Below are positions 538-42,845 of a stretch of 64,000 nt of DNA, piece by piece. Position 1 is the first letter of the stretch; the number at the start of each line of letters is the position of its first letter. This stretch comes from Phreatobacter sp. Its GTDB lineage: Bacteria > Pseudomonadota > Alphaproteobacteria > Rhizobiales > Phreatobacteraceae. The position numbers were made by a program, and so were the translations under genes. The notes under the pieces were generated by a model, which saw only the letters and a list, made by a program, of their open reading frames with translations, searched no databases and was not told the DNA's origin. The stretch covers positions 124,001-188,000 of the forward strand of contig NZ_JALHMP010000001.1 in the NCBI RefSeq assembly GCF_022843985.1. The letters are read 5' to 3'.

Positions 538-3500
538 CTACATCTCCATGACCGCCTGGACGCCGGGCACGGCCTTGATGGCGCCGGCGATCTGCGGCGA
601 GACCGCGAAGCGGCCAGGCAGTTTCACCTCGACCTCGCTGCCGGCATCGGCAAGCCGGATGACGAGGCTCACCTCACCATCGCCCTTCACCGGCAGGCGG
701 CGGGCGATCGAGTCGATGGCTCCGAGATCCTCGACGAAGACGCGGAAGCCCTTCTGGACACGCACGGCCGCGGCATCAAGCGGCTCGACCGACTGGATGC
801 GCACGCGCACGTCATCGCCCTGCAACTCGGCACCGACGGCCAGCAACACCGCCTTGCCGGGCTCGAGCAGATCGCGATAGAGCGCCAGACCCTCCGAGAA
901 CAGCACGCCCTCGTAATGGCCGGAGGGATCGGAAAAGGTGACGATGCCCATCTTGTTGCCGGTCTTGGTGCGCCGCTCCTGTCGCGACGTGACGACGCCG
1001 GCCAGCCGCCCGGCGCTGGCGCCCTGACGGACGCTGCGGGAAAATTCCAGGAACGGCTCGATGCGCAGGCGCTTCAATGCTGCCTGGTAATCGTCCAGCG
1101 GGTGGCCCGACAGGAAGAAGCCGATGGCCTTGTATTCCTCGTCCAGCTTCTCGGCCGGCAGCCAGGGCTCGACCTTCGGCACGCGGATGAGCGGTGCGCC
1201 AGAGCCGCCGAAGAGCTCATCCTGGCCGAGCGCCCGCCCCTCGGCCTGACGCTGGGCTTCCGCCAGCACCTGGTCGATGGCGGCGAAGGCGGCGGCGCGG
1301 TTCGGCTCCAGATCGTCGAAGGCGCCGGCGGAGGCGAGGTTCTCCAGTGTCTTGCGGTTGAGCATCCGCGGGTTGATGCGCTGGGCGAAGTCGCCGAGGT
1401 CGCGGAACGGCTGCTCGCTGCGCGCCGCCACCACGGCCTCCACCGCCTGCTGGCCGACACCCTTCACCGCCGCCAGGGCATAGAGAATGCGGCCCTCGGC
1501 CACCTCGAAATGGACACCCGAGCGGTTGATGCTCGGCGGGTCGACGGGAATGCCGAGGCGCACCGCCTCGCGGCGGAATTCGGACAGCTTGTCGGTGTTG
1601 GACAGGTCGAGCGTCATGGAGGCCGCCATGAATTCGACCGGGTAATTCGCCTTCAGATAGGCCGTATGATAGGAAACGAGGGCATAGGCTGCCGCGTGGC
1701 TCTTGTTGAAGCCGTAATCGGCGAATTTGGCGAGAAGATCGAAAATCTCGTCCGCCTTGGCCTTGGGGATCGACCGCTCGACACAGCCGGAGACGAAGCG
1801 CTCGCGCTGCTTGTCCATCTCCGCCTTGATCTTCTTGCCCATGGCGCGGCGCAGGAGATCGGCCTCGCCGAGCGAGTAGCCCGACAGGATCTGCGCCGCC
1901 TGCATCACCTGCTCCTGGTAGACGATGATGCCGTGGGTCTCGGAGAGCACCTGCTCGAGCAGCGGATGGGGGTATTCGGCCTTTTCGTGGCCGTGCTTGC
2001 GGGCGCAATAGACCGGAATGTTGGCCATGGGGCCCGGGCGATAGAGCGCGACGAGGGCGATGATGTCCTCGAAGCGGCTCGCCCGCATCTCGACGAGGGC
2101 CTTGCGCATGCCGGCGCTTTCCACCTGGAACACGCCGACCGTCTCGCCGCGGGCCAGCATGTCGTAGGTCCTGGCATCGTCGAGCGGGATGGTGGCGAGG
2201 TCGATGGCAATGCCGCGCCGGGCGATCAGTTCCACCGCCTTCTGCAGCACGGTGAGCGTCTTCAGGCCGAGGAAGTCGAATTTGACCAGCCCGGCCTGCT
2301 CGACCCATTTCATGTTGAACTGGGTGACCGGCATGTCGGTCTTCGGGTCTCGGTAGAGCGGCACGAGCTCGACCAGCGGCCGGTCGCCGATGACAAGGCC
2401 GGCGGCGTGGGTCGAGGCGTGGCGGTTGAGCCCTTCCAGCTTGGTGGCGATGCCGAAGAGGCGGGAGACGACGGGGTCCTCGTCGCGGGCCGCCTGGAGC
2501 TTGGGCTCGCCCTCGATGGCCTTGTCCAGCGTGACCGGAGCCGCCGGATTCTGCGGCACGAGCTTGCAGAGCTTGTCGACCTGGCCATAGGGCAACTCGA
2601 GGACGCGACCGACATCGCGCAAAACGCCGCGGGCCTGCAGGGTGCCGAAGGTGATGATCTGCGCCACCTGGGCGCGACCATAGCGCTCCTGGACGTAGCG
2701 GATCACCTCGTCGCGGCGGTCCTGGCAGAAGTCGATGTCGAAGTCCGGCATCGACACACGCTCAGGGTTCAGGAAGCGCTCGAAGAGCAGCGCAAAGCGC
2801 AGCGGATCGAGGTCGGTGATGGTCAGGGCATAGGCGACGAGGGAGCCAGCGCCCGAGCCACGGCCGGGACCGACGGGAATGTTCTGCGCCTTGGCCCATT
2901 TGATGAAGTCCGCCACGATCAGGAAATAGCCGGGGAACTTCATGCCGGCGATGATCGAAAGCTCGAAATCCAGGCGGTCGCGATAGTCCTTCTCGGTGAG
3001 GCCCGGGGCCGGTCCATGGACGGCGAGCCGCCGGTCGAGCCCCTCGCGGGCCTGGCGGGCCAGTGCGGCGGCCTCGTCCAGCACTGCGCCGCCGGCCTCC
3101 TCGGTGAAGCTCGGCAGGATCGGCTTGCGGGTCTTCGGCCGGAAGTGGCAGCGGCGGGCGATCTCCACCGTCGAGGCCACGGCCTCCGGCAGGTCGGCGA
3201 AGAGGGCCACCATCTCCACCTGGGTCTTGAACCGGTGCTCGGGCGTCAGCTGGCGCCGTTCGGAATCGCCCAGCACTCGCCCCTCGGCGATGGCGATCAG
3301 GGCATCATGGCTCTCGTAGTCTCCCAGCGAAGCAAAATAGCACTGGTTGGTGGCGACCAGCGGCAGGCCGCGCGCATAGGCCTCCTGGATGAGGTCGGGC
3401 TCCACCGCCTTCTCCTCGTCGAGGCCGTGGCGCTGCAGTTCGACATAGAGCCGGTCTCCGAAGATCGATTCGAGCCGGTCGAGGCGGCTGCGGGCGAGGT

Positions 3501-3993
3501 CTGCCTGGCTGTCGCGGAAGGCCTGGTCAACCGGACCGCCCGGGCCGCCGGTCAGCGCAATCAGTCCGTCGCCATGGGCGGCGAGCACGGCGAGCGAAAT
3601 GCTGGCATCGCCGACATCGGCGCTCTCCATGAAGGCCCGAGACGACAGCGCCATCAGGTTCAGATAGCCCTGCTCGCTCGCCGCCAGAAGGGCGATGCGA
3701 GGTTTGGCCGCCTGAAGATTGGGCCGTTTGGGATCGACGGCCCTGTCGCCGCAGTCGAGACCGAGGGTGAGGCCGATGATCGGCTGGATGCCCTCGCCTT
3801 TCATTTTCTCGGAGAATTCGAGGGCGGCGAAGAGATTGTTGGTGTCGGTGACGGCTACTGCCGGCATCCGGTCATGGCCGGCCAGCTTGGCAAGCTTGCC
3901 GATGCCCAGCGCACCCTCCAGCAGAGAGAAGGAGGAATGGACCCGCAAGTGGACGAAAGCCTGTCCTGCCATCCAATCCCGTGTCCCTGCCAT
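538..3993 (-). CDS. dnaE: DNA polymerase III alpha subunit (replicative, DnaE1 type)
   Basis: Catalytic subunit of the chromosomal replicase. The 1151 residues begin with a PHP domain (HLRVHSSFSLLEGAL near residue 15), continue into the polymerase core with GPGRGSGAGSLVAYAL and the catalytic PDFDIDF near residues 412-418, and have a helix-hairpin-helix/OB-fold region towards the C-terminus (GVVTSRQERRTKTGNKMG). Length and N-terminus fit replicative DnaE1 rather than the shorter SOS polymerase DnaE2/ImuC. A second Met at residue 8 is a possible alternative start. The gene lies downstream of lolC, lolD and a 31-codon microprotein gene preceded by two LexA-type boxes, so part of its transcription may be damage-responsive; that regulatory link is inference. 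Confidence 0.97.
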   Translation of the reverse strand: MAGTRDWMAGQAFVHLRVHSSFSLLEGALGIGKLAKLAGHDRMPAVAVTDTNNLFAALEFSEKMKGEGIQPIIGLTLGLDCGDRAVDPKRPNLQAAKPRIALLAASEQGYLNLMALSSRAFMESADVGDASISLAVLAAHGDGLIALTGGPGGPVDQAFRDSQADLARSRLDRLESIFGDRLYVELQRHGLDEEKAVEPDLIQEAYARGLPLVATNQCYFASLGDYESHDALIAIAEGRVLGDSERRQLTPEHRFKTQVEMVALFADLPEAVASTVEIARRCHFRPKTRKPILPSFTEEAGGAVLDEAAALARQAREGLDRRLAVHGPAPGLTEKDYRDRLDFELSIIAGMKFPGYFLIVADFIKWAKAQNIPVGPGRGSGAGSLVAYALTITDLDPLRFALLFERFLNPERVSMPDFDIDFCQDRRDEVIRYVQERYGRAQVAQIITFGTLQARGVLRDVGRVLELPYGQVDKLCKLVPQNPAAPVTLDKAIEGEPKLQAARDEDPVVSRLFGIATKLEGLNRHASTHAAGLVIGDRPLVELVPLYRDPKTDMPVTQFNMKWVEQAGLVKFDFLGLKTLTVLQKAVELIARRGIAIDLATIPLDDARTYDMLARGETVGVFQVESAGMRKALVEMRASRFEDIIALVALYRPGPMANIPVYCARKHGHEKAEYPHPLLEQVLSETHGIIVYQEQVMQAAQILSGYSLGEADLLRRAMGKKIKAEMDKQRERFVSGCVERSIPKAKADEIFDLLAKFADYGFNKSHAAAYALVSYHTAYLKANYPVEFMAASMTLDLSNTDKLSEFRREAVRLGIPVDPPSINRSGVHFEVAEGRILYALAAVKGVGQQAVEAVVAARSEQPFRDLGDFAQRINPRMLNRKTLENLASAGAFDDLEPNRAAAFAAIDQVLAEAQRQAEGRALGQDELFGGSGAPLIRVPKVEPWLPAEKLDEEYKAIGFFLSGHPLDDYQAALKRLRIEPFLEFSRSVRQGASAGRLAGVVTSRQERRTKTGNKMGIVTFSDPSGHYEGVLFSEGLALYRDLLEPGKAVLLAVGAELQGDDVRVRIQSVEPLDAAAVRVQKGFRVFVEDLGAIDSIARRLPVKGDGEVSLVIRLADAGSEVEVKLPGRFAVSPQIAGAIKAVPGVQAVMEM

Positions 3994-4097: not shown

Positions 4098-4193
4098 TCA
4101 TCCCTGAAGCGCTTGCGCCCAGACGGTGATCATGCCGGTGAAGAGACCCAGGGCGACCAGGGCGGCGGCGTCTTCGATGAAGCTGCGGATCAT
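4098..4193 (-). CDS. 31-aa single-span membrane microprotein, SidA-like candidate
   Basis: This small frame runs from an ATG with a strong Shine-Dalgarno (GGGAGGA, six bases upstream) to TGA. The 31-residue product has a short amphipathic start (MIRSFIEDAAA) followed by one hydrophobic span of about 17 residues (LVALGLFTGMITVWAQAL). Two LexA-type boxes lie 37-82 bases upstream on its strand. It sits between lolD and dnaE and is read in the same direction as both. Caulobacter SidA is a 29-residue inner-membrane, SOS-induced division inhibitor acting on FtsW/FtsN; from memory its gene also lies just ahead of dnaE, which should be checked. Size, topology, regulation and position agree, but homology of the sequence itself is unverified. 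Confidence 0.75.
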   Translation of the reverse strand: MIRSFIEDAAALVALGLFTGMITVWAQALQG

Positions 4194-4229
4194 AATGTCC
4201 TCCCGCGTTTCCGAAAGCCAGGACATCAT

Positions 4230-4244
4230 GTTCTCATTTTGTTC
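4230..4244 (-). promoter_or_regulatory. LexA (SOS) box 2, GTTC-N7-GTTC
   Basis: The plus strand reads GTTCTCATTTTGTTC, an exact match to the alphaproteobacterial LexA consensus GTTC-N7-GTTC, with an AT-rich spacer. It lies 37 bases upstream of the microprotein start, close to or just downstream of the expected promoter -10 region, where repressor binding would block transcription. It is inverted relative to the second box, and the two centres are 31 bp apart. Confidence 0.7.
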
Positions 4245-4260
4245 ACGGAACAATAGACCG

Positions 4261-4275
4261 GAACAAAATCGGAAC
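4261..4275 (-). promoter_or_regulatory. LexA (SOS) box 1, GTTC-N7-GTTC
   Basis: On the minus strand this reads GTTCCGATTTTGTTC, again an exact GTTC-N7-GTTC. The overlapping sequence TTGTTC-N16-TATTGT is a possible -35/-10 pair for the microprotein gene, so bound LexA would cover the promoter. A third GTTC half-site occurs between the two boxes (minus strand, near 4250) but at N9 spacing from its neighbour. Confidence 0.7.
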
Positions 4276-4303: not shown

Positions 4304-5032
4304 TCACAACTCGACGATGAGGCCGTCGCGGATGGTCACCCGCCGGTCCATGCGGCCCGCGAGGTCCATATTGTGGGTGGCAACAACCGCGGCGAGGCGC
4401 GAGGCCCGCACCAGTTGCCCGAGCGCCGAGAAGACGTGGTCGGCGGTCTTCGGGTCGAGATTGCCCGTCGGCTCGTCCGCCAGCAGGAGGCGCGGCGCAT
4501 TGGCGACAGCGCGGGCGATGGCGACGCGCTGCTGCTCGCCGCCGGACATTTCCGCGGGACGGTGAGTCTGGCGCTCGCCTAGGCCGAGATAGGTCAGGAG
4601 TTCGCTCGCCCGGGCCTTGGCCTCCTTGTAGGAGAGGCCGCGGATCATCTGCGGCAGGATGACGTTCTCCAGCGCCGAGAATTCGGGCAGCAGGTGGTGG
4701 AACTGGTAGACGAAGCCGATCTCCAGCCGGCGGATGCGGGTGCGATCCTTGTCGGCGAGCTTCGAGGTCGCGCGCCCGCTGATATAGACCTCGCCGCCGT
4801 CGGGGGCTTCCAGCAGGCCGGCGAGGTGCAGCAGGGTCGACTTGCCGGTGCCGGAAGGAGCGATCAGGGCCACGGTCTCGCCGGGCCAGATGGCGAAATC
4901 GGCACCCTTGAGGATTTCGAGCGGCGCGCCGGCCTCGGCATAGCGGCGCTCGACCTTCTCCATCCACAGGACGGGGGCCTCTTCGCCGCCAGCGGCGGCG
5001 ACCGGGGCTTCGGCGGTCACGACATCACTCAT
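4304..5032 (-). CDS. lolD: Lipoprotein-releasing ABC transporter ATP-binding protein LolD
   Basis: ATPase of the LolCDE-type machine that extracts outer-membrane lipoproteins from the inner membrane and hands them to LolA. The 242 residues show Walker [10 protein letters not shown] at 58-66 (the first Gly of the consensus is replaced by Ala), signature [14 protein letters not shown], and Walker [13 protein letters not shown]. The N-terminal 20 residues are an Ala/Glu-rich extension before the family core. The start overlaps the end of lolC by eight bases (ATGAGTGA), so the two are translationally coupled. Spacing to the microprotein gene downstream is about 110 bases and holds the LexA boxes, so dnaE can be transcribed separately from lolCD. 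Confidence 0.95.
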
Positions 5033-6293
5033 AGCGCAGCGCCTCGACCGGATCGAGCTTGGCCGCCCGCCAGGACGGGTAGAGGGTGGCGAGCAGGGAC
5101 AGGACCAGCGCCATGAACAGCACGGTCAGGGTCTCGCCCGTCGACATGTCCGCCGGGATCTGGGTGAGGAAGCGCACGGTCGGGTCCCACAGGGTGGTGC
5201 CGGTCAGCCAGGAGACGAATTCCTGGATCTTCTCGATGTTGAGGCAGACGACGACGCCAAGGATGAACCCGGCGATGGTGCCGACCACACCAATGGAGGC
5301 GCCGGTGATGAGGAAGATGCGCATCACGGCGCCGCGCGTGGCGCCCATCGTTCGCAGGATGGCGATGTCGCGGCCCTTGTCCTTCACCAGCATGATCAGG
5401 CCGGAAATGATGTTGAGCGCCGCGACGAAGACGATCAGCGTCAGGATCATGAACATGACGTTGCGCTCGACCTGGAGGGCCGAGAAGAAGGTGGCGTTGC
5501 GCTGCCGCCAGTCGACGATGAAGACCGGCCGCTCGACGCCTTCCGACACGGCGCGGCGGTATTGTTCGATACGGTCGGCATTGTCGGTATAGACCTCGAT
5601 GGAGGAGGCATCGCCGTCGCGATTGAAATAGGCCTGCGCCTCGGTGAAGGGCATGAAGACGAAGGCGGAATCATATTCCGTCATGCCCACCTCGAAGATG
5701 GCCACGATCGGATAGGCCTTGATCCGGGGCGTCATGCCCATGGGGGTGGACGAGCCCTTCGGCGAGACGAGGGTCAGGCTGTCGCCGAGCCGGAGCGAAA
5801 GCTGGTTGGCGAGCCTCTGGCCGACCATGACCCCTTCACTCGTGTCGAAATCCTCAAGGCCGCCCTGCTTGATGTTGGTGGAGATCAGCGGCAGGCGGCG
5901 CAGGTCCTCGGCCCGCATGCCGCGCACGATGGCGCCGCCGGCATTGAAGGCGGAGGAGGCCAGCGCCTGGCCCTCGATGACCGGGGCCGCCAGCCGCACG
6001 CCCTGAATGCGCATGAGGCGCTGGGCCACCTCGACATAGTCGGTCAGCGGCGTGTCGATCGGCTGGAGAACCATGTGGCCCTGGACGCCGAGGATCTTAC
6101 CGAGCAGTTCCTTCCGGAAGCCGTTCATCACCGCCATGACGATGATGAGCGTCGCGACGCCCAGCATGATGCCGATAAAGGAGAACCCGGCGATGACCGA
6201 GATGAAACCCTCCTTGCGGCGCGCCCGGAGGTAGCGCAGCGAGAGCATCCATTCGAAAGCGGAAAAGGGGCGTGTTCCGGTGGCTTCTGACAT
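5025..6293 (-). CDS. Lipoprotein-releasing ABC transporter permease LolC/E
   Basis: Membrane partner of LolD. I start it at the internal Met ([15 protein letters not shown]) because the family begins about there; an upstream in-frame Met at 6338 would add 15 unlikely residues. The 422-residue product has an N-terminal membrane span ([28 protein letters not shown]), a large periplasmic MacB-like core domain, and three C-terminal spans typical of the FtsX/LolE fold. As usual in alphaproteobacteria, a single permease gene accompanies lolD, probably forming a homodimer; this is why I give no C or E letter as symbol. It is the first gene of the lolCD pair. Confidence 0.93.
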
Positions 6294-6400
6294 CGACCAA
6301 TCATGGGGTTGAACCGCAGGGCGCGGGTCAGCCCACACAAACTATCTGATTCAGGCCTTCTCGCGACGGGGGAGCGGCGGAATTTCCGGGGCCCGGCGCT

Positions 6401-41520: not shown

Positions 41521-42845
41521 CGACGTTTCCCCCTGAGCTGCGACTTCTTGATCAGCCCCTCATACTGGTGGGCCAACAGATAACCCTGGACCTGCGCGAC
41601 CGTATCGAGCGTCACGGTGACGACGATAAGCAGCGAGGTGCCGCCCAACAGATAGAAGCTTTGTCCAAGCTGGCCAATCAGCACTTCGGGCAATAGGCAG
41701 ACCAGGGTGATATAGGCGGCGCCGACGACCGTGATGCGGGTCAGGACGTAGTCGATGTATTGCGCGGTCTTCTCGCCGGGCCGGATGCCGGGAATGAAGC
41801 CACCATATTTGCGCAGATTGTCGGCCGTTTCCGTCGGGTTGAACACGATGGCCGTGTAGAAAAAGCAGAAGAAGATGATCAGGAGCGCATAAAGCGCCAT
41901 GAACAGCGGCTGCCCGTGGCCGAGAAGCTGGGCGGTCAGGCGCAGCCATTCCGCCGGATCCGTTTGGAACGACAGCGCGGTGGTCGGCAGCAACAGCAGC
42001 GACGAGGCGAAGATCGGCGGAATGACGCCGGCCGTGTTCAGCTTCAAGGGCAGATGGGACGAGTTCCCCTCGAAGACCTTGTTGCCCTGTTGACGCTTTG
42101 GATACTGGATCAGCAGCCGCCTCTGGGCCCGCTCGAAGAAGACGATCACGACGATCGTGAAGGCGATCAGCACGAGCAGCCCGAGGAGAAGCGGCGTCGC
42201 GATGACGCCCTGACGGCCGAGTTCGAAAGCCTGGGCGAGGACGCTCGGCAGTTCGGCGACGATTCCAGCGAAGATGATCAGCGAGATGCCATTACCGACG
42301 CCGCGCTGGGTGATCTGCTCTCCGAGCCACATCAAGAACATGGTGCCACCGGTCAGGGTGATCACGGTGCTCATGACGAAGAACAGGCCGGGATTAGCGA
42401 CGACCGTCCCGGAGGACTGCAGGCCGACCGCGATGCCCCAGGACTGGAACACGGCAAGGACCACGGTCAGGTAGCGGGTGTACTGGTTGATCTGCTTGCG
42501 GCCCTGCTCGCCCTCCTTCTTCAGCTTCTCGAGCTCCGGCACGACGGCGGTCAGCAGCTGGATGATGATGGAGGCGGAGATGTAAGGCATGATGTTCAGC
42601 GCGAAGATCGCCATGCGCCCGACGGCGCCGCCGGCGAAGACGTTGAACATCGCCAGAACGCCCTGGTTGGCGTTGAAGATCTGACGCAGCGCTTCCGGAT
42701 CGATGCCTGGCAGCGGGATATAGGTGCCGAGGCGATAGACCAGCAGAGCGCCGAGGGTGAACCACAGGCGCTTCTTCAGGTCCTCGGCCTTGCCGAAGGC
42801 ACCGAAATTCAGATTGGCGGCCAGTTGTTCCGCTGCCGATGCCAT
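41517..42845 (-). CDS. secY: Protein translocase subunit SecY
   Basis: The ten-span core of the Sec channel, 442 residues. The start at [15 protein letters not shown] is chosen over an ATG 54 bases upstream. Features: [15 protein letters not shown] with the plug following, [39 protein letters not shown], and the cytoplasmic loop Arg residues ([16 protein letters not shown]). It sits between rplO and adk as usual; a hairpin lies in the rplO-secY gap. Confidence 0.99.

Follow-up and report, generated by a model that had tools for sequence, protein, structure and literature searches.

The window analysed here is a stretch of 64,000 nucleotides from the genome of Phreatobacter sp. (Alphaproteobacteria; Rhizobiales), and it carries a microprotein gene placed between a lolD-type gene and dnaE, with a gap of 104 nt between the microprotein stop codon and dnaE (Table 1). 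An FtsX-type gene at 5025-6338 adjoins the lolD-type gene, and the name lolD is assumed here from this neighbour. On re-reading of the sequence, the 31-codon frame, its stop and its coordinates were as the initial annotation had given them, and the two exact GTTC-N7-GTTC boxes that it had placed 37-82 nt upstream do start 37 and 68 nt ahead of the ATG; the GGGAGGA ribosome site, said to stand six bases ahead of the ATG, was found to end 4 nt before it. An in-frame upstream ATG (MMSWLSETRED-; 4224-4229, minus strand) is present about 11 codons ahead of the conserved start, both in the window and in some close relatives, and gene finders might choose this longer form. It is the MIR/MVR start that carries the ribosome site, and the genus-wide conserved part begins there.

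Table 1. Features of the microprotein locus, in window coordinates
Feature	Position (nt)	Strand	Basis
SidA-type single-span microprotein gene, 31 codons, MIRSFIEDAAALVALGLFTGMITVWAQALQG	4098..4193, stop included	-	reading frame, conservation, selection, predicted helix
Ribosome site GGGAGGA	4198..4204	-	4 nt before ATG, read from sequence
Proximal predicted LexA site, exact GTTC-N7-GTTC, GAACAAAATGAGAAC in gene direction	4230..4244	+	motif and genome scan
Distal predicted LexA site, exact GTTC-N7-GTTC	4261..4275	-	motif and genome scan
dnaE, DNA polymerase III alpha subunit	538..3993	-	Pfam PHP, DNA_pol3_alpha, finger and HHH_6; TIGR00594, 1196 bits
lolD-type ABC ATPase gene, upstream neighbour of the microprotein gene	4304..5032	-	Pfam ABC_tran

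The single hydrophobic span claimed for the encoded protein is borne out as one predicted membrane helix. AlphaFold2 models the window protein as a single helix over residues 2-30 (mean pLDDT 96), and its best 19-residue hydropathy mean is 1.76, relative to 2.06 for the Caulobacter frame discussed below. Neither Pfam nor NCBIfam had a match to the window protein or to one relative scanned alongside it, and a tblastn search on plasmids likewise gave none.

The frame is a real gene, because it occurs in all 12 genus genomes searched (its own included; 77-100% identity), and because these sequences vary as a coding sequence under purifying selection would. Specifically, the variable columns number 11, 3 and 26 of 31 at the three codon positions, and the pooled pN/pS is 0.20 in the microprotein frame, rising to 2.1 and 6.2 when the two alternative frames are read. 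Three loci of the first search (L015, L017 and L019) were dropped, as they lie inside long open frames of 478, 461 and 391 aa, respectively.

Alphaproteobacterial LexA binds GTTC-N7-GTTC. The window holds three matches to this pattern (1.65 expected), two of them within 46 nt at the microprotein gene; the third, at 42645-42659 on the minus strand, has a GC-rich spacer and was taken as chance. Across the whole genome, 109 matches were counted versus 48 for the reversed pattern. One lexA gene scores above cut-off in this genome, and two exact boxes stand just upstream of it. Among 11 box-bearing stretches picked for inspection, mainly for their AT-rich spacers, boxes precede ssb, an SRAP gene and a ligase-associated damage-response helicase gene, as well as ImuA-like and YifB-like genes that both fall below curated cut-offs; the remaining boxes stand before an ATPase gene, a radical SAM gene, fumA, or nothing clear. 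Taken together, this makes GTTC-N7-GTTC the very probable SOS operator of this genome. Two of the inspected stretches bear mention in their own right. At the first (L374; C17:1640), an exact LexA-type box lies 44 nt before the gene for a 655-aa ATPase that weakly resembles the retron Eco8 effector and PtuA, and that is possibly an SOS-controlled phage defence gene. At the second (L375; C19:14732), a GAAC-A7-GAAC box is followed, after about 190 nt, by a gene for class I fumarate hydratase.

Within the order, a profile built from 10 sequences matched 61 of 150 genomes at an E-value of 0.1, with several of the weaker matches inside long frames. An exact box was present at 22 of 26 loci checked, and dnaE was shown by motif at 20 of them; four of the six misses are beside dnaE by position, and the other two lie 1.6 kb from dnaE (G475) and on another contig than dnaE (G454). 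Because selection by profile was to be avoided, dnaE-upstream regions were sampled next: dnaE was found in 147 of the 150 genomes, and 110 upstream regions (30 loci and 80 stretches) were examined. At least one exact box occurs in 58 of these, versus 1.6% of block-shuffled regions, and a member scoring above 10 bits with the iterated profile occurs in 53. Box and member coincide strongly (47 regions with both, 11 with the box only, 6 with the member only and 46, or 42%, with neither; Fisher p = 5e-14). The 10-bit threshold was chosen after the decoys had been seen, a stricter first threshold having given 22 members; that first decoy threshold was inflated by one "decoy" on the opposite strand, which resembles a member in flipped orientation. 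This is L237 (G485, family f11 of the order), where the member-like frame MVRDVAALGALTAFATMLAVVVGGA stands on the strand opposite dnaE, as if flipped; apart from it, opposite-strand controls score no higher than 7.4 bits. A short hydrophobic frame follows just past the box in several of the 11 box-only regions, and absence from 42% of regions may be either real or a matter of members below detection.

SidA was described in Caulobacter, and the initial annotation had suggested that sidA lies just before dnaE there. Similarity to PopZ picked out no Caulobacter from 50 genomes of the class. A PopZ probe led to named genomes (80 loci kept), 30 of which were searched and 29 of which yielded dnaE; 25 of the 29 are labelled Caulobacter or Phenylobacterium, and the others Caulobacterales, Alphaproteobacteria or, in two cases, Proteobacteria bacterium. 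This synteny holds in all 29 of these Caulobacterales-type genomes, each of which has a SidA-type frame of 29-32 residues directly before dnaE, with an exact box at 20 loci and none at the other nine. By their length, box and place, we take these frames to be the published SidA; their membrane character, like their length and box, agrees with that of the inner-membrane SidA described in the literature (PMC4211646). In C. crescentus, sidA and dnaE are taken to be neighbours. In the literature, sidA is listed as CCNA_02004 (PMC10769358) and Caulobacter dnaE as CC1926 (PMC1839093). A genome-wide study includes sidA among the genes with a corrected start (PMC4117421), which fits the in-frame upstream ATG seen at seven Caulobacter-type loci (L215, L219 and L221-L225).

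The relationship between the two sets of frames was assessed with profiles. When an order-only profile, whose 79 rows all come from the window's order, was used to rank 1150 six-frame stretches, the 29 Caulobacterales frames took ranks 1-29 (best E-value 1e-7), with scores from 27.5 down to 10.9 bits and the next frame at 4.9 bits. With a narrower first profile, Caulobacterales frames took up ranks 1-10, and the top 42 contained 26 of the 29. Profile-profile comparison with hhalign (A2, order, against A3, Caulobacterales) gave a probability of 57% and a P-value of 1e-4, and column permutations reached the real score in 2 of 300 and 12 of 300 cases, so that the real score is modestly ahead; the iterated profile separated the frames more clearly. 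Pairwise identity of the window protein to the Caulobacter frame is low, at 24%, and none of the 15 Caulobacterales rows in A3 has the tryptophan seven residues past the core phenylalanine.

At the level of the class, 365 of 385 genomes have a dnaE place, and 150 of these places were listed. Of 60 dnaE-upstream regions taken from the 150, mostly from larger genomes and three from the window's own order, 14 have a box, and nine of these have a member above 5 bits (top decoy, 4.3 bits). The single member-only match among the 60, L094, is probably false. Over all 385 genomes, the narrow profile A2 gave 10 matches, eight of them weak, and a joint profile gave 17 whole-genome matches at an E-value of 0.01, four of which were profile rows and three of which came from the window's own order. 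In all 17, dnaE starts within 300 nt past the microprotein, and 16 have an exact box. As a whole-genome search that is free to match anywhere lands only before dnaE, this is strong evidence that the class matches form one gene family. The count of 17 in 385 is likely a lower bound, since the sample holds many small genomes.

The ranking by the order-only profile and the restriction of class matches to the place before dnaE both support the view that the window microprotein is a homologue of SidA, encoded at a conserved position under predicted LexA control, and that its gene is probably orthologous to Caulobacter sidA. The suggestion of a positional counterpart in another order is upheld by computation, through homology to the Caulobacter frame and a shared place before dnaE. 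The gene itself, the selection on it, its boxes, its position and this homology are all computational results.

The likeness to Caulobacter SidA extends to length (31 residues in the window protein and 29 in SidA, or about 30 in both), to one predicted membrane helix, to an alphaproteobacterial LexA box upstream with dnaE directly downstream, and to a pattern centred on [DE]xxA and F that can be aligned between the two and is scored by the order-only profile. There are differences as well. The window protein has its tryptophan seven residues past the core phenylalanine, whereas the Caulobacterales rows have one two residues past; the window has two exact boxes, whereas each of the 20 box-bearing Caulobacterales loci has one; and lolD is immediately upstream in the window, whereas a frame resembling the end of lolD by eye lies more than 1 kb upstream at two Caulobacter loci.

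SidA is reported to be a 29-residue, SOS-induced, inner-membrane division inhibitor that acts through FtsW/FtsN (PMC4211646). By analogy, the best explanation for the window locus, and one held with fairly high confidence, is that a real gene, the homologue and probable orthologue of sidA, is held by LexA and encodes a damage-induced inner-membrane blocker of the late division complex. In the undamaged cell, LexA on both boxes would keep the microprotein gene off; upon DNA damage, cleavage of LexA would allow its transcription. The 31-residue protein would then insert in the inner membrane as one helix, its N-terminus kept inside by its arginine, bind the late division complex FtsW/FtsI/FtsN and hold it inactive, such that septum synthesis would be delayed until the DNA is repaired. 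Damage induction, membrane insertion, FtsW/FtsN binding and the division block are all expectations drawn from SidA. A modelling study places SidA on TM7 of FtsW with low confidence (PMC13396833). Compared with FtsW of C. vibrioides OR37, the FtsW encoded here shows 50% identity and retains A31, F145 and A246 (numbering assumed from the start MASNA), sites at which changes suppress SidA and/or DidA; given the overall identity of 50%, this conservation is a weak sign that fits the same target.

Related inhibitors are known from elsewhere. DidA, a small transmembrane protein of Caulobacter, likewise inhibits FtsW/I/N once DNA has been damaged, but it is SOS-independent (PMC4211646). By description, YneA of Bacillus, SosA of Staphylococcus and ChiZ of Mycobacterium are also damage-induced small membrane division inhibitors, for which FtsW is the target, demonstrated or predicted (PMC13396833), although they belong to other phyla; yneA and chiZ are listed beside sidA as genes unrelated to sulA (PMC4211646).

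An alternative is that the frame encodes a leader peptide to adjust dnaE transcription or translation, with LexA really controlling dnaE. In nearly all loci checked, the frame and dnaE are near each other and share a strand, and some other small Caulobacter frames have been judged leaders (PMC4117421). However, what is conserved, class-wide, is the amino-acid pattern of a membrane helix, and SidA is reported to work as a protein (PMC4211646). In the window, RNA that spans the gap from the frame to dnaE is no better folded than shuffles (z = 1.45). Moreover, dnaE lies 0.6-0.7 kb from the microprotein in two members of the genus (G007, locus L005, and G006, locus L008), unlike in most of the genus, and 1.6 kb downstream in G475, while the frame of G485 is on the opposite strand to dnaE. 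A leader role is accordingly unlikely, and dnaE may be co-induced as a side effect.

A second alternative is an SOS-induced peptide of the TisB/DinQ kind, which acts on the membrane and is not a division inhibitor. TisB of E. coli is an SOS-induced single-span peptide, and both TisB and DinQ act on the membrane and are under antisense control. DinQ, also of E. coli, has been described as an SOS-regulated single-span peptide. The window protein shares their size class, single span and predicted LexA control, but the conserved place beside dnaE and the homology to SidA, whose targets are reported to be FtsW/FtsN (PMC4211646), make this reading very unlikely. Finally, it is scarcely credible that the frame arose by chance next to LexA sites with a role for dnaE or with none: a length of 31 codons is by itself weak evidence of a gene, but this notion is, in our view, refuted by the codon-position variability and pN/pS given above, and profile conservation across the order and class also speaks against it.

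SidA is likely to be an old alphaproteobacterial SOS division inhibitor, not one peculiar to Caulobacter, that stands beside dnaE in many families of the class and has been lost, or has become unrecognisable, elsewhere. At about 30 codons, the family is easily missed in annotation. Relatives of SidA outside Caulobacter were not found in the literature searched, which mostly left out subscription papers, the 2011 founding paper among them, and the new part is the class-wide reach of the SidA-type gene. Outside the gammaproteobacteria, the textbook example of an SOS division inhibitor, SulA, is reported not to be widely conserved (PMC4211646). A SidA-type family at one place in many families would represent one answer to post-damage division arrest in the class, and it would supply natural variants with which to map the FtsW contact. 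It also suggests that the LexA-type sites found ahead of dnaE are there for a hidden gene.
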